Origin: a virus
Virus record (IMG/VR): IMGVR_UViG_3300028177_000420
Coordinates: 1 to 41,146 of that record
DNA length: 41,146 nt
Direction: 5' to 3' (one strand)
Shown piece by piece: positions 2,260 through 38,289 of the stretch (positions are counted from its first letter, which is position 1; each line of letters starts with the position of its first letter). The notes beneath the pieces are model-generated. The model was not told the DNA's origin and searched no databases. It was given only the letters and a program-made list of their open reading frames with translations. A program made the position numbers and the translations under genes.

Positions 2260-2471
2260 TACTGTTTTTTCATCCAAGTTATGAAGGCAGGGAAATTATG
2301 AATTTGACTGCCGGGGGCACGTGACCAAGCTTTGCGGTCTTGTTTCATGGTATCGCACCAAAGGTTAAAATAATAATTCACTTCAGCCATACGGCTTTCA
2401 TCAAGTGAAATCCCATTCTGTTCCAGCGCAATTAGAAATTCATTGCGACTTAAAGGATAGTTTTTTGTCAT
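2259..2471 (-). CDS. Hypothetical protein (70 aa)
   Basis: A small helical protein beginning MTKNYPLSRNEFLIALEQNG. The N-terminus resembles a short helix-turn-helix-like segment (LSRNEFLIALEQNGISLDESRM), but nothing definitive. It is linked to its neighbours by an ATGA overlap upstream and a TAATG overlap downstream, so it belongs to the operon driven by the promoter at 2822-2850. Confidence 0.6.
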   Translation of the reverse strand: MTKNYPLSRNEFLIALEQNGISLDESRMAEVNYYFNLWCDTMKQDRKAWSRAPGSQIHNFPAFITWMKKQ

Positions 2472-2815
2472 ACTAACATCTCCTTGAGATTAGCAAAAGG
2501 TTTAAAGGTACGGGATACCGGTTTCTTGGCAGCCCGATAAAGAACGGCAACACGGTTCGCCTCGAGCATTTTCTCATGGGCCTCTTTACGTTCCCATTCG
2601 GCTTCCTCCACTACCTCCTGCTGCATACGGTCAGCAGCATCACGGATATCCTGAATAGGATCTTCCATGTTATAGTAACGACACCGAACCCCATAAAGCA
2701 TTTTATGGGTATCTGACAGATATATAAGGAGGTCTTGTTTCTCCTCGTCTTCCGATGTGGTAGAGATATCCTGGAACCAGCCAGGGGCGAACATCAATGT
2801 ATTTTTCATTTCCAT
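2468..2815 (-). CDS. Conserved-looking phage protein (115 aa), first gene of operon
   Basis: The start is set at the ATG at 2815 because a near-perfect sigma70 promoter has its TATAAT ending six bases before that ATG. The ATG further upstream at 2839 lies inside the promoter. The central motif IYLSDTHKMLYGVRCRYY is followed by a long acidic/basic helix that is probably coiled coil (residues about 60-100). I recall the 'SDxHKxxYGxRxR' motif in many small phage proteins without a known role. The mRNA would be leaderless. It is likely an early gene. Confidence 0.7.
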   Translation of the reverse strand: MEMKNTLMFAPGWFQDISTTSEDEEKQDLLIYLSDTHKMLYGVRCRYYNMEDPIQDIRDAADRMQQEVVEEAEWERKEAHEKMLEANRVAVLYRAAKKPVSRTFKPFANLKEMLV

Positions 2816-2821
2816 ACTGCT

Positions 2822-2850
2822 ATTATACACAGCTGCCACCCATAAGTCAA
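2822..2850 (-). promoter_or_regulatory. Sigma70-type promoter TTGACT-N17-TATAAT
   Basis: On the minus strand the -35 hexamer TTGACT (2850-2845) and the consensus -10 TATAAT (2827-2822) are exactly 17 bp apart. The ATG of the next gene follows six bases after the -10, so transcription is expected to start at or next to the start codon. Confidence 0.85.
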
Positions 2851-2860
2851 TTTCCTTCGT

Positions 2861-2880
2861 AAGTCATTGATTTATATAGG
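2861..2880 (+). repeat. 20-bp motif AAGTCATTGATTTATATAGG, copy 1
   Basis: This is one of three copies of a 20-bp motif (others at 2931-2950 on the minus strand and 29468-29487). It sits 10 bp upstream of the -35 box of the 2822-2850 promoter. The copy at 29468 has the same relation, 7 bp upstream of the promoter at 29432-29460. The position suggests an activator- or repressor-binding site. Confidence 0.65.
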
Positions 2881-2930
2881 TTTTATTATGGGCCCTGAGC
2901 ACCAGCTCTTACCACTTTTGGGATAAATTT

Positions 2931-2950
2931 CCTTTAAATATCAATGACTT
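2931..2950 (-). repeat. 20-bp motif, inverted copy 2
   Basis: Read on the minus strand this is AAGTCATTGATATTTAAAGG. It differs from the 29468 copy at two positions and lies in inverted orientation to copy 1, so the two bracket a 50-bp spacer inside the 2816-3003 intergenic segment. Confidence 0.6.
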
Positions 2951-2964
2951 ACAGAGGTTTTGCC

Positions 2965-3001
2965 ATGTCGTTTTTAGACAAGTGATGTCGTTTTTAGACA
3001 A
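2965..3001. repeat. Tandem 17-bp operator-like repeat with internal dyad
   Basis: ATGTCGTTTTTAGACAA occurs perfectly twice, at 2965-2981 and 2985-3001, with a 20-bp period (about two helical turns). Each copy holds an imperfect palindrome TGTC-N7-GACA. Two same-face dyads upstream of a promoter look like a cooperative regulator-binding site. The source of the regulator (phage or host) cannot be told from the sequence. Confidence 0.7.
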
Positions 3002-3921: not shown

Positions 3922-4053
3922 TTAATCAGGAAGTACCATACTAGTGTTCCGACCACGGCCATATCCAGACATACCGAATATAACAGGTATGCACGGATCA
4001 CCCATGGCCTTGCGCTCCGGAGGTACTTCACGGGTCTGTCCTCGTTCAATCAT
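3922..4053 (-). CDS. Small protein of unknown function (43 aa) between adenylate kinase and Fe-S carriers
   Basis: ATG at 4053 overlaps the adenylate kinase stop by eight bases, and the TAA ends directly next to the following ATG. The peptide starts MIERGQTREVPPERKAMG and continues with a single Cys (DPCIPVIFGMSGYGRGRN) and a Gly/Arg-rich C-terminus. It has no signal peptide. Its compact linkage on both sides and the protein-like composition make it a probable gene. I do not recognise the family. Confidence 0.6.
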   Translation of the reverse strand: MIERGQTREVPPERKAMGDPCIPVIFGMSGYGRGRNTSMVLPD

Positions 4054-4606
4054 TTTCTAGTTCCTTTATGATTTTCTTTGATGTATTCTCAGCAGTATCA
4101 CCTTCTGCTTTAATACTTATAAATTCACTTCTACCTTTATAATAATCAACAACTGGGCCTGTCTCCTTTTCATAAACCTTCAATCGGTTCTTTATGATTT
4201 CCGGCTTATCATCAGCACGACCTCTCGCTGTCAATCGGCGTATTACCTCTGCCTCACTTACATCCAAAAATACTACTCGATTTACTTCTATACTAGCCTT
4301 CTGCATTTCCTTTAGTTGTTCCATATTTCTAGGGAACCCATCAAGAATATATCCATTAGGCGATTTTAATATCTCTTGTTTTATGATTTTGACTACCACA
4401 TCCAAAGGCGCAAATTCACCCTTCGATATAAGAGCCTTTACCTCGGGATCATCAGACTTTCTCAGTATATCACCAGGATATATATGAGGTATACCAAAAT
4501 GTTTAGAGATGGCCTCGGAGTAGGTAGATTTACCAGACCCCGGGCCACCTAGTAACATAAGCTTGATAGATGCAGCTTCAATAATGTATGTAGAAAATCT
4601 TTTCAT
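4046..4606 (-). CDS. adk: Adenylate kinase with capsid-targeting-like N-terminus
   Basis: This is a short-form adenylate kinase (186 aa) that interconverts ATP, ADP and AMP. The P-loop is GGPGSGKST (residues 20-28), the AMP-binding region includes DGFPRN, and the LID is short (LTARGRADD). It lacks the zinc-finger LID. The first 14 residues, MKRFSTYIIEAASI, are an extension absent from ordinary adenylate kinases and resemble the T4 capsid-targeting leader (MKTYQEFIAEA in T4 IPIII), which is cut by gp21 after a Glu. A consensus promoter ends seven bases before the ATG, so the mRNA may be leaderless. It may work in nucleotide supply, be packaged and injected, or both. Confidence 0.88.
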   Translation of the reverse strand: MKRFSTYIIEAASIKLMLLGGPGSGKSTYSEAISKHFGIPHIYPGDILRKSDDPEVKALISKGEFAPLDVVVKIIKQEILKSPNGYILDGFPRNMEQLKEMQKASIEVNRVVFLDVSEAEVIRRLTARGRADDKPEIIKNRLKVYEKETGPVVDYYKGRSEFISIKAEGDTAENTSKKIIKELEND

Positions 4607-4613
4607 ACTTATT

Positions 4614-4642
4614 ATTATACTCTCTATTTAGGCTAATGTCAA
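4614..4642 (-). promoter_or_regulatory. Consensus sigma70 promoter of adenylate kinase
   Basis: The minus strand has TTGACA (4642-4637), a 17-bp spacer and TATAAT (4619-4614), both hexamers perfect. It is preceded by TAAAACTA, an extended -35 context shared with the promoters at 17453 and 31162. Seven bases separate the -10 from the ATG. Confidence 0.9.
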
Positions 4643-12912: not shown

Positions 12913-13371
12913 CTACATTCGCAAAGTTTTTTCTGTCCAAACGTCAAAGATCCAGTCTCGTTTATCACAATATTTTTTAGCTGCGGCCCACTTTGCACTA
13001 TTGCGGCCCCATTCTCTTACCTCATATAGATAAGATTTAGTCTTTTTTCTTCCTACTTTTGGTGGTTTAAGAAACTTAGCAGGCTTCACTTCAATAATTC
13101 TAGTCTCTATCAATTGACCTTTTTTCACCTTCACTAAAAAGTCAGGATAGTATCTGTGTATTTTATTATCCCAAGGAGATATATACGGTATAACAACTTC
13201 TTCGCTAGACCATTCTAAAACATTTTCATTACGGTCAAAATAGACCATACACTGCCGTTCCCACATTGATCGGTAAATAATGTTTCGTGGGTTGCCTTTA
13301 TACTTACCAGGCTCAATAGGTACAAACTTACCTTTGTAAGGTTTACGCCGTGAGTATTTCTTATTATCCAT
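12913..13371 (-). CDS. 4: Head completion protein, T4 gp4-like
   Basis: A 152-residue protein matching the gp4 pattern: KGKFVPIEPGKYKGNP, then IYRSMWERQCMVYFDRN, WSSEEVVIPYISPWDNKIHRYYPDFLV and a Lys-rich C-terminus with IIEVKPAKF. The fold is nuclease-like (PD-(D/E)XK layout: E in SSEE, D in YYPDF, E-x-K in IEVKP). In T4, gp4 completes full heads before tail joining. No clear ribosome site precedes the ATG. Instead TATAAGTA lies five bases upstream, suggesting a leaderless late transcript. It diverges from the plus-strand baseplate operon. Confidence 0.88.
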   Translation of the reverse strand: MDNKKYSRRKPYKGKFVPIEPGKYKGNPRNIIYRSMWERQCMVYFDRNENVLEWSSEEVVIPYISPWDNKIHRYYPDFLVKVKKGQLIETRIIEVKPAKFLKPPKVGRKKTKSYLYEVREWGRNSAKWAAAKKYCDKRDWIFDVWTEKTLRM

Positions 13372-13378
13372 ATAAATA
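13371..13378 (+). promoter_or_regulatory. T4-type late promoter octamer TATAAATA
   Basis: An exact copy of the T4 late -10 element TATAAATA lies 25 bases before the ATG of the gp48/54-like gene, followed by AGAGGAA as ribosome site. It would drive the plus-strand operon of three baseplate genes. Confidence 0.8.
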
Positions 13379-16515: not shown

Positions 16516-17385
16516 TTAACCTTCATCTGCCAACTTGGCAAAATAATCTAAAGTCTCATCATCATCGGTTGTTTCAGGAACCGGAGTAATGACTTCAACT
16601 TTCTTCTTGGGAGTAAATGTCTCAACAGTACCCTTTACTGATGTACCAGTAAGAACCTTGTTGAGTTTTTCCTTCAGTTCATCATAAGTCTTAAAAGTCT
16701 TAGGATCAACAAATTCCTGTAGACTATGTAACTTCTCATTATATAATGTTTCAAGGCGAGCGTCATCACCTTCAAGCAGTTCTGAAGGATTATCAAACTC
16801 AGACTTATCGTAATTCCAATAACCATCGACCTTACGGATCTTGAGTTTAAAGTTAGCACCCTTCCACATATCAAATGGATTCAAGGGAGTTTCATCATCA
16901 AACGCAGGGTTCATAGCTTCAGTAATCTTATCAAAGATTTTCTTACCGAAACGATACAACCTTACTGTACCATCATTCTCAGGGTGCTTTGGGTCACTCA
17001 CAACTAGGATGTTGGAGTAATATTTGAGAATTCGCTTCTGCTTCCTGGCAATCTCCTTATCTGATTCTGCACCACTGTTCCAAAGTTCAGTGTTGTATTC
17101 AGATACTGGATCATTCTTACCAATCGTGGTCAGTGAATTCTCGATATACCAACCACCAGGACCGTTGAACGCATGATTCCAAAGTCGAACCCAAGGAAGA
17201 TCCTCACCAGCTGGTTGCGGCAGAAAACGAATTACTGCGAAACCATTGCCGGTCTTATCCAGATCGGGTTTCCAAAAACGGTTATCTTCAAAAGAATTGC
17301 CGGAGGCGGGACTGTTTAACTTTGAGAGTTCAGTCTGTAATTTTTCAAAAGAGCCAGACTTGCTCTTTAGGTCTGCAAAAGACAT
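16516..17385 (-). CDS. 32: Single-stranded DNA-binding protein, T4 gp32-like, zinc site lost
   Basis: A 289-residue gp32 homologue: basic N-terminus (SFADLKSKSGSFEKLQ), core with FWKPDLDKTGNGFAVIRFLPQP, PWVRLWNHAFNGPGGWYIENS, ILVVSDPKHPENDGTVRLYRFG and an acidic tail (TTDDDETLDYFAKLADEG). The tail is the protein-interaction end in T4. The T4 zinc site (His and three Cys) is reduced: the His in NHAF is kept but there are no cysteines in the protein. It coats ssDNA during replication and recombination. A perfect promoter lies upstream at 17453-17481. Confidence 0.93.
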   Translation of the reverse strand: MSFADLKSKSGSFEKLQTELSKLNSPASGNSFEDNRFWKPDLDKTGNGFAVIRFLPQPAGEDLPWVRLWNHAFNGPGGWYIENSLTTIGKNDPVSEYNTELWNSGAESDKEIARKQKRILKYYSNILVVSDPKHPENDGTVRLYRFGKKIFDKITEAMNPAFDDETPLNPFDMWKGANFKLKIRKVDGYWNYDKSEFDNPSELLEGDDARLETLYNEKLHSLQEFVDPKTFKTYDELKEKLNKVLTGTSVKGTVETFTPKKKVEVITPVPETTDDDETLDYFAKLADEG

Positions 17386-17452
17386 ATATTGTATCTCCTA
17401 TATATTATCGTATTTACTATCAATCGCTGTATAATCGCAATCAATACTATTT

Positions 17453-17481
17453 ATTATACCACGGTTCTTAACTAATGTCAA
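17453..17481 (-). promoter_or_regulatory. Consensus sigma70 promoter of gp32
   Basis: TTGACA (17481-17476), 17 bp, TATAAT (17458-17453) on the minus strand, both perfect, directly after the stop of the DUF262-HNH gene. TAAAACTC precedes the -35 as at 4614 and 31162. The leader to the gp32 ATG is about 65 bases and carries AGGAG. Confidence 0.92.
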
Positions 17482-25056: not shown

Positions 25057-25764
25057 TTACAGCTGTTGTAAATTAGCATCAAGATCCTCATAAAATTGAT
25101 CCATCATAGTCTCAAGTTTATCTTCAAAATCTTTTGTTTTCTTTTCAAATATTTGTACCTGACCATCTTCAGCTACCATCATAATAACAATATCATCAAT
25201 ACCTATACCAGTATGTTCTTCATACATTGAAGCATAAGCAGTACACTGTATAAAGTAATCGTCAATCCATTCTTCCTTCTTAGGTGTAGTAGTAGTTTTA
25301 AAATCTACCACTGCCAAGGTTTCATTATAGACACCAATAAAGTCACAACGGCCGGCAACTTTATATTTTGATGAATACATACTTTGTTCTAGAAGTAATG
25401 GTTTTCTCTGAATTTTCTCATCAAAATAAGGTTTCATTTCCTTAAACATACAATAGGCAAGAAAGTTCTTTTGTTTATGATCTTCTTCCAACTTGGTACT
25501 GAATTCAGGATCGGACAATATAAACATATCTTCACATATGTTATGAAAGGCAGTACCACGGCGAGCAGCTTTACCCGACACAATGCGAGCTTGTTCTTCA
25601 CCAATACGTTTACGCCATTCTTGTAGACCTTTCTGTTTACCTTTCTGTTTGCCTAAAACGGTGGTAATAGATGGATACTTATTACCATCAGGCGCCTCAT
25701 AGAAGCGCATACCATTATGGGTATGTACCACCAGTTCTGGGAACTCAAAATTTTCTGTATTCAT
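25057..25764 (-). CDS. PD-(D/E)XK nuclease (RecB/Cas4-like exonuclease)
   Basis: The nuclease core is visible in order: GKAARRGTAFHNICED (conserved His), SKYKVAGRCDFIGVYNETLAVVDFKTTT (the D and D-x-K catalytic residues) and IQCTAYASMYEE (motif QxxxY). The N-terminus has ITTVLGKQK. This family includes phage exonucleases and the mitochondrial MGME1. It would process DNA ends during replication or recombination. The start at 25764 is leaderless: the consensus -10 ends six bases before the ATG. Confidence 0.85.
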   Translation of the reverse strand: MNTENFEFPELVVHTHNGMRFYEAPDGNKYPSITTVLGKQKGKQKGLQEWRKRIGEEQARIVSGKAARRGTAFHNICEDMFILSDPEFSTKLEEDHKQKNFLAYCMFKEMKPYFDEKIQRKPLLLEQSMYSSKYKVAGRCDFIGVYNETLAVVDFKTTTTPKKEEWIDDYFIQCTAYASMYEEHTGIGIDDIVIMMVAEDGQVQIFEKKTKDFEDKLETMMDQFYEDLDANLQQL

Positions 25765-25770
25765 AATATA

Positions 25771-25799
25771 ATTATACTCTAGTTAGAGATTAAAGTCAA
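25771..25799 (-). promoter_or_regulatory. Sigma70-type promoter TTGACT-N17-TATAAT
   Basis: -35 TTGACT (25799-25794) and -10 TATAAT (25776-25771) on the minus strand, 17 bp apart. The nuclease ATG follows the -10 by six bases; the -35 lies inside the end of the PhoH gene. Confidence 0.85.
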
Positions 25800-29203: not shown

Positions 29204-29399
29204 CTTTCTCCACTTCTTCAAAGATGTACTGTAATACTGGGGTTGGTTTTCTATCCTCAGATCGTAATACCCCACGATCAGAACCTTGAATCAACTTCCT
29301 GCACAATTCCAGCTCACCTGGACCATGTTCTGATATCACCGCTTTAAGGTCCGGTGTCATAATCTTATAACCTATCACTTTTGGCATTATTACCGACAT
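29187..29399 (-). CDS. Hypothetical protein (70 aa)
   Basis: Starts MSVIMPKVIGYKIMTPDLKAV, with AGGAG before the ATG. The second half is charged (RSEDRKPTPVLQYIFEEVEK). It opens the operon driven by the promoter at 29432-29460, which reaches SprT, ACP and the lysis genes. No motif recognised. Confidence 0.6.
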   Translation of the reverse strand: MSVIMPKVIGYKIMTPDLKAVISEHGPGELELCRKLIQGSDRGVLRSEDRKPTPVLQYIFEEVEKDESVH

Positions 29400-29431
29400 A
29401 TTAAACTCCTATTTGTGTTAATATACTATAC

Positions 29432-29460
29432 ATTATACACTATAAAGGGCATAATCACAA
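29432..29460 (-). promoter_or_regulatory. Sigma70-like promoter with upstream 20-bp motif
   Basis: -35 TTGTGA (29460-29455) and consensus -10 TATAAT (29437-29432), 17 bp apart, on the minus strand. The 20-bp repeat lies seven bases further upstream. The mRNA leader is about 25 bases with AGGAG. Confidence 0.65.
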
Positions 29461-31066: not shown

Positions 31067-31142
31067 TGGAGCCACCACCAGGAATCGAACCCGGGACATC
31101 AACCTTACAAAGGTCGTGCTCTACCTGCTGAGCTATAGTGGC
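31067..31142 (-). tRNA. tRNA-Thr(UGU) with encoded CCA
   Basis: GCCACTA pairs with TGGTGGC (one G-U) to form the acceptor stem. D stem GCTC/GAGC. The anticodon stem CGACC/GGTTG holds the loop TTTGTAA with anticodon TGT. T arm CCGGG-TTCGATT-CCTGG, discriminator T and CCA encoded. It reads ACA codons, which are common in AT-rich coding. It has its own promoter. Confidence 0.95.
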
Positions 31143-31161
31143 AAATTTCACTTATTACATA

Positions 31162-31190
31162 ATAATAACATACTATCTAAAGATTGTCAA
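31162..31190 (-). promoter_or_regulatory. Promoter of tRNA-Thr, TTGACA-N17-TATTAT
   Basis: -35 TTGACA (31190-31185) is perfect and -10 TATTAT (31167-31162) matches 5 of 6, 17 bp apart on the minus strand. The -35 is preceded by TAAAACTC, as at the gp32 and adk promoters. Transcription would start about 15 bases before the tRNA. Confidence 0.75.
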
Positions 31191-33862: not shown

Positions 33863-33889
33863 AGTAGTATTCTCCTACTACTATTTATA
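33863..33889 (-). promoter_or_regulatory. Late promoter TATAAATA with ribosome site in a hairpin loop
   Basis: On the minus strand TATAAATA (33889-33882) is followed by a perfect 7-bp hairpin AGTAGTA-GGAGAA-TACTACT (33882-33863). The Shine-Dalgarno GGAGA lies in the loop and the ATG follows the stem directly. Confidence 0.8.
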
Positions 33890-37297: not shown

Positions 37298-38254
37298 TTA
37301 AATTCGCTTCCAGGTGGCCAAGCGCATTTTGGCTTGCAACCCAGAAAAAGTGTTGTTGTCTATAATTGTTTGTATGCCCTCAATACCTGCGAGGGTCATA
37401 TCGTTGATGTCTTTTTGTTGAATGGAATCTGGCCAAATCACTAGTTCATAATCTATATCAATTAAATTTTCCATTCGTCTTACTATCTCTTTATTTCTGG
37501 GTTCGTTATCCAGAATTATTGTTGTATCTTCTTTTTGAAGATTATTAAAATCTGCACCGGCGACAGCAAGACAATTATTCAAAAATAGAGAATCAATAGG
37601 ACCCTCTACTACATAAACTCTTTTGGAGAAATCAACCCGATCTAAACCAAAGATTTTTGGCTTGTCATCAAACTTTACAGTCAGATACTTGGGTTGCTCA
37701 TTACCAAAAGCTCTACCTTGTGCAGCAAAAATTTTTCCATCTTCATCATAAAAGGGAATCACCAATCTAGGATGATCCTTATTACTACTTATCTCTGACC
37801 AAGCATAGAACTTATGACAGAGATAAAACTTATCATAATGCTCTTTCGGAATTTGTCGGGTGACTAAAACTTGATAGGCAGGATGATCGGCGTTAAGTTT
37901 ATTTATAGAAACCAAGTCTTTGAGTTTTGGGTCCCTCTTTTTAAACTTAGGTTCTTCAAACTTATATTCAATTTCTTTCTCGGTTGGAAAAAAACTCTCT
38001 TTTACATACTCTTTATAGATTTCTGGATTTATGTATTTTACCACATTTCCAGCGGTTGTACCATAATCGCAATTATGGCATCTAAAGTTCATTTGATCCT
38101 TTACCCGATAAAAGTATCCACGGGCCTTATTTTTGAATTTCTCAGAATCACCGCAATATGGGCATCTAAGGTTATAAAGGTAATCCCGCACTTTATGGAA
38201 CTTATCCAAATGCGGACTGATTTCGTGGATGTATTTAATATCAATAAAGATCAT
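37298..38254 (-). CDS. 61: DNA primase, T4 gp61-like
   Basis: A 318-residue primase. The zinc-binding domain is CPYCGDSEKFKNK, followed by FRCHNC, and the Toprim motif is VVEGPIDSLFLNN with ILDNEPRNKEI (acidic catalytic residues). T4 gp61 makes the pentanucleotide primers for gp43. The start ATG (38254) is six bases after a TATAAT, so it is a leaderless early gene. The class II RNR and the zinc-ribbon gene are downstream in the same transcript. Confidence 0.9.
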   Translation of the reverse strand: MIFIDIKYIHEISPHLDKFHKVRDYLYNLRCPYCGDSEKFKNKARGYFYRVKDQMNFRCHNCDYGTTAGNVVKYINPEIYKEYVKESFFPTEKEIEYKFEEPKFKKRDPKLKDLVSINKLNADHPAYQVLVTRQIPKEHYDKFYLCHKFYAWSEISSNKDHPRLVIPFYDEDGKIFAAQGRAFGNEQPKYLTVKFDDKPKIFGLDRVDFSKRVYVVEGPIDSLFLNNCLAVAGADFNNLQKEDTTIILDNEPRNKEIVRRMENLIDIDYELVIWPDSIQQKDINDMTLAGIEGIQTIIDNNTFSGLQAKMRLATWKRI

Positions 38255-38260
38255 CTATAC

Positions 38261-38289
38261 ATTATATAACGAATAGGTGGGAAAGTCAA
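38261..38289 (-). promoter_or_regulatory. Sigma70-type promoter of primase, TTGACT-N17-TATAAT
   Basis: -35 TTGACT (38289-38284) and -10 TATAAT (38266-38261) on the minus strand, 17 bp apart. The -10 ends six bases before the primase ATG. Confidence 0.88.

Follow-up and report, generated by a model that had tools for sequence, protein, structure and literature searches.

Gene content of the window and the four promoter–ATG sites

The window analysed here is an uncultured virus record of 41,146 bases in IMG/VR (IMGVR_UViG_3300028177_000420), taken at its full length. Its gene content includes gp32 (phrog_224), a gp61-like primase, a ribonucleotide reductase (phrog_367, with DNA matches to B12-dependent enzymes), an RNase H-like exonuclease and a PD-(D/E)XK nuclease. 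The top cultured matches of gp32 and the nuclease include the Pelagibacter phages Mosig and HTVC008M, the Methylophilales phage Melnitz and cyanophages; the three named phages are listed as Kyanoviridae, and the gene order primase, ribonucleotide reductase, nuclease, gp32 parallels that of Mosig. The window represents part of the genome of a Kyanoviridae-like, marine T4-like bacteriophage. It also carries a permuted tmRNA and a tRNA-Thr(TGT), the latter with an extended sigma70-type promoter of its own that begins about 20 nt upstream of the tRNA. A tmRNA is likewise present near the nuclease in Mosig and Melnitz, and that of Melnitz is discussed in the Melnitz paper (PMC9004378).

An earlier note had described four minus-strand genes that share one build: TTGACA or TTGACT, 17 bp, TATAAT, 6–7 bases and ATG. 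An exact search of the whole record for TTGAC[A/T]-N17-TATAAT-N6/7-ATG recovered those four only; every one lies on the minus strand and at the start of a gene, with no match on the plus strand and none to the reversed pattern (Table 1). The spacer measures 17 nt in 4/4 sites, and the gap to ATG is 6, 7, 6 and 6 nt for the gene of a 115-residue protein, adenylate kinase (adk), the nuclease and the primase, respectively. All four have 11–12 of 12 matches to TTGACA and TATAAT at a spacing of 17 ± 1, the consensus on which the sigma70 assignment was scored. Duplex energies of +0.3, −3.3, −2.4 and +0.9 kcal/mol indicate that none of the four has a Shine-Dalgarno (SD) sequence, as against −7 to −12 kcal/mol for many other genes of the window. 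The normal leaders that the same note had ascribed to gp32 and the gene at 29399 were also found, with promoters 67 and 32 nt upstream and a GGAG in both.

Table 1. Coordinates of promoters, genes and neighbouring features in the window
Feature	Position	Strand	Details
Promoter of 115-residue gene	2813..2850	-	TTGACT-17-TATAAT-AGCAGT-ATG; −35 at 2845-2850, −10 at 2822-2827
115-residue CDS, function unassigned	2468..2815	-	alternative in-frame GTG starts at 2839, 2830
Inverted repeat, 27 nt	2854..2880, 2931..2957	-	81% complementary
Two identical 17-nt repeats	2965..2981, 2985..3001	-	
Promoter of adk, perfect	4604..4642	-	TTGACA-17-TATAAT-AATAAGT-ATG
adk CDS (PF00406)	4046..4606	-	186 residues; N-terminal extension kept in relatives
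Late-type box TATAAATA	13371..13378	+	25 nt before ATG; ribosome site
Contrast promoter of gp32 (CDS 16516-17385), perfect	17386..17481	-	promoter 17453-17481; 67-nt interval
Permuted (two-piece) tmRNA, RF04321	23977..24373	-	predicted tag ANDDVYFQDYALAA
Promoter of nuclease	25762..25799	-	TTGACT-17-TATAAT-TATATT-ATG; −35 overlaps stop codon of upstream gene
PD-(D/E)XK nuclease CDS (phrog_298)	25057..25764	-	235 residues
Contrast promoter of 29399 gene	29400..29460	-	TTGTGA-17-TATAAT; 32-nt interval
tRNA-Thr(TGT)	31067..31190	-	promoter TTGACA-17-TATTAT, 31190-31162
Late-type box TATAAATA	33882..33889	-	19 nt before ATG; ribosome site
Promoter of primase	38252..38289	-	TTGACT-17-TATAAT-GTATAG-ATG
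DNA primase CDS (phrog_47, gp61-like)	37298..38254	-	318 residues

The region upstream of the promoter of the 115-residue gene (2854-3001) contains an inverted repeat, whose lower arm stops immediately short of the −35 box, together with two direct 17-nt copies. The inverted repeat folds stably (z-score −3.4), and no match to the region was found in the phage collection.

Upstream genes and start codons

The most serious alternative to initiation on the adjoining promoters is that translation of the genes depends mainly on longer mRNAs begun farther upstream, through read-through or translational coupling, the sigma70 boxes being minor or serving downstream genes only. The adk and nuclease genes follow a same-strand upstream gene after 41 and 31 nt, and distant adk relatives sit in operons without a promoter of their own. 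Such initiation would nevertheless find no SD, and it would leave both the consensus quality and the fixed 6–7 nt distance unexplained; the primase and the 115-residue gene are moreover preceded by gaps of 134 and 188 nt, and the same distance peak recurs across viral contigs (see below). We consider this explanation improbable as the main one, although read-through mRNAs may also carry adk and the nuclease, a point against the leaderless reading. Leaderlessness may be selected as such or be a by-product of compaction. A promoter packed into a short gap would explain adk and the nuclease but not the primase and the 115-residue gene; the ample room before the latter two hints that this arrangement is favoured in its own right, or at the least does no harm.

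Less probable still is that the true starts lie elsewhere, at an upstream GTG of the 115-residue gene or at downstream codons with ribosome sites, so that the promoters would be intragenic or followed by leaders. The two in-frame GTGs of the 115-residue gene do have SD-like energies (−5.7 and −5.8 kcal/mol). Relatives, however, place the start at the adjacent ATG for the nuclease, adk and the primase: nuclease relatives with an ordinary ribosome site begin at the same protein position, the adk of many marine contigs has the 14-residue extension conserved from residue 1 (50–59% identity), and primase relatives share their start to within one or two residues. Downstream candidates have a weak SD or would cost adk its P-loop strand or the primase its Cys motif. 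Wrong start codons were thus rejected for these three of the four genes. The 115-residue gene is the weakest member of the set, because an IMG/VR search found no relatives of the protein and two upstream GTG starts are possible; its predicted leaderless start is a call from geometry alone.

The adk protein begins MKRFSTYIIEAAS ahead of the P-loop strand, and relatives in L165–L244 keep MK[TS]F..F..EA. Some adk relatives are without the extension (MNIILIGGPGSGKS); similar N-termini occur on enzymes encoded nearby in those contigs. The adk N-terminus resembles the capsid-targeting propeptides of T4, which are cut after L/I-X-E (PMC9026906), and by this analogy the adenylate kinase may be packaged in the head.

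Promoter–ATG spacing across viral DNA and gene families

The window's promoter-like sites in total are close to shuffled expectation (61 observed vs 64.9 expected, and 88 vs 72.6), as would fit a chance juxtaposition of promoter-like strings and ATG in A+T-rich DNA, and weak promoter matches are therefore uninformative. The shared build stood out against chance expectation both here and in a wider survey. The four exact sites compare with 0 matches in 400 first-order Markov simulations of the window's dinucleotide composition, and, under a looser definition (at least 10/12 matches), those window ORF starts that have a promoter at 0–14 nt have it only at 6 (n = 3) or 7 nt (n = 1).

IMG/VR was scanned for perfect sigma70 promoters with an ATG 0–30 nt downstream; the matches listed are not a strictly random sample. 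Among these matches, ATGs taken anywhere in the interval showed no preferred distance; ORFs of at least 50 codons gave a sharp peak at 6–8 nt (26/90 with TTGACA, 13/85 with TTGACT) and a second, broad hump past about 20 nt. Counting all ORF starts in listed viral contigs not chosen for lineage, we found 47 at 6–8 nt vs 8.8 predicted from neighbouring distance bins (p ~2e-19), a layout about five times commoner than chance across the sampled environmental viral DNA; Kyanoviridae-like loci had 26 such starts vs 6.0 expected. Bacterial genome contigs, mostly Clostridia and unrepresentative of marine hosts, had no peak at 6–8 nt (4 vs 4.2 expected), and a Pseudomonadota baseline of 200 genomes contained no more than 4 exact N6-8 matches, a number that does not allow a histogram of distances.

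Among the matches listed in viral contigs, a strong SD was present in 4% of the 6–8 nt class vs 48% of genes with promoters 19–40 nt away; part of this deficit is unavoidable, since the −10 box lies where an SD would be. The first 40 nt of the 6–8 nt class are also less structured at equal G+C content, which agrees with a report that leaderless mRNAs of Caulobacter have an unstructured region (PMC4117421). Forty surveyed genes of the class were scanned for function: five belonged to primase families, two to the phrog_298 nucleases, three to 2OG-Fe oxygenases and two to endonuclease V, with single genes of clamp-loader, late sigma factor and late-promoter coactivator families. The survey thereby returned the window's primase and nuclease families independently.

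When 12 nuclease promoters were aligned on the ATG, mean identity was 0.92 in the −35 box, 0.58 in the spacer, 0.85 in the −10 box and 1.00 at the ATG, so that the spacing is kept while the spacer sequence drifts. The six bases before the ATG also reach 0.94; TATATT precedes the ATG in several SD-led relatives as well, and its conservation may therefore reflect more than the promoter. Chance juxtaposition, contradicted by the simulations, by the distance histogram from independent viral DNA and by this retained spacing, was rejected as highly unlikely. A consensus promoter TTGAC[A/T]-17-TATAAT is conserved at L099:5983, L107:4137, L109:4418, L112:4753, L113:3910, L118:3137 and L088:9584; the conserved sequence after it reads FQCKDGNHPKLVKAY in one frame and seemingly lies inside a coding region.

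Of the 38 nucleases on the tree, 18 count as leaderless by promoter distance; their spacer is 17 nt without exception, and their promoter stands 6 or 7 nt from the ATG. The outgroup nucleases of HTVC008M, Mosig, L127, L130 and L133 have a promoter 25–31 nt upstream and a ribosome site. Two members of the clade, L092 and L100, have a GGAG in place of the promoter, which they have lost, and in L115 and L116 the promoter stands 22–27 nt upstream; relatives without an adjoining promoter mostly have a GGAG/AGGA ribosome site, their promoter being absent or 22–31 nt upstream. Because the leaderless label requires about six changes on the tree, a count that long branches make approximate, leaderless and SD-led modes exchange in this family.

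For the primase, the promoter lies 6–11 nt from the ATG in the window, L006/L007, Melnitz (N7), Mosig (N10) and HTVC008M (N11); in L032 and L042, judged by eye, it is at 8 nt and has TTGCTT as a weaker box. The expected leaders of the Mosig and HTVC008M primases are about 3–5 nt, not zero, and annotated Mosig genes with an N6 distance were also found. On the cyanophage-like side of the tree the promoter is at least 14 nt from the ATG in 47/47 rows.

The two late-type TATAAATA boxes of the window both precede genes with ribosome sites, and late-type promoters of this phage appear to have leaders. That the four sites are themselves T4-type late promoters rather than host-sigma70 ones is the remotest of the readings: the phage is T4-like and such promoters also start transcription a few bases past their box, but a late promoter has no −35, the four have TATAAT followed by AG, AA, TA or GT with TTGAC[A/T] at exactly 17 nt, and the true TATAAATA boxes stand 19–25 nt from ATGs with SD; it was rejected for the wrong box and the presence of a −35.

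Predicted leaderless initiation and known systems

Transcription usually starts 7–8 nt after TATAAT, and at the four sites this distance would make the first transcribed base the A of the ATG or a base 1–2 nt before it. We propose, with a probability of roughly 0.85, that the four sites are host-sigma70 promoters placed for leaderless mRNAs. Transcription would start at the A of the start codon or within 1–2 nt of it, and the resulting mRNAs would be translated through their 5'-terminal AUG without an SD, presumably by 70S ribosomes. The leaderless mRNAs that the earlier note predicted are supported, as a prediction, by sequence comparison: by the promoter geometry, the lack of an SD, the fixed starts of three genes, the exchange with SD-led starts and the virome-wide distance peak. 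From the host-sigma70 form of the promoters and the types of gene, expression is predicted to be early; the timing of adk is less certain, because of its possible capsid-targeting peptide.

Beyond the window, it seems slightly better than an even guess that leaderless initiation is a widespread, gene-specific alternative to SD starts for host-sigma70-transcribed genes of aquatic tailed phages, recurring at primase, nuclease, 2OG-Fe oxygenase, endonuclease V and gp33/gp55-type genes and exchanging repeatedly with SD-led starts. Programs that predict phage genes or model their expression generally take a leader with a ribosome site for granted. Were leaderless genes common in phages, the sequence would directly give their start codons and mRNA ends, and part of phage translation would not need the SD-dependent pathway. 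In the nuclease family one and the same gene occurs with either kind of start, a natural series of switches between them. Relatives have been cultured together with their hosts (Melnitz on OM43, Mosig on SAR11), and the claim can therefore be tested directly.

Among known systems, the mRNA of lambda cI begins at its AUG, as predicted for the phage genes of the window; cI, however, is a single repressor gene of a temperate phage, whereas the window has several replication-type genes in a T4-like phage. Leaderless initiation was first found in lambda (PMC3160421). The AR9 paper states that phage transcripts "are often leaderless". For Melnitz, a Kyanoviridae relative whose primase promoter stands at N7 in the present scan, early promoters with sigma70-type boxes were predicted (PMC9004378); the word "leaderless" occurs in that paper only in a reference title, and none of the papers covered by our literature searches described leaderless genes for this group of phages.

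In the TA-led bacterial genes of Zheng et al. 2011 (PMC3160421), a −10-like TANNNT hexamer lies about 10–12 bp before a start codon that has no SD. The four genes are alike in both respects, TATAAT beginning 12–13 nt upstream in 4/4, but that survey covered cellular genomes, whereas the window is from a phage and has a near-perfect −35 as well. In Deinococcus-Thermus a −10 motif 6–7 bp upstream of the ORF yields leaderless mRNA, usually without a −35, and a properly spaced −35 is needed for expression in E. coli (PMC12340547); the window has the same −10 distance, and its layout equals the −35-added version that was expressed in E. coli. Leaderless genes with a −10 box next to the ATG are already known from lambda, Deinococcus and Actinobacteria; what is new here, and well supported as a prediction from sequence, is the set of phage genes.
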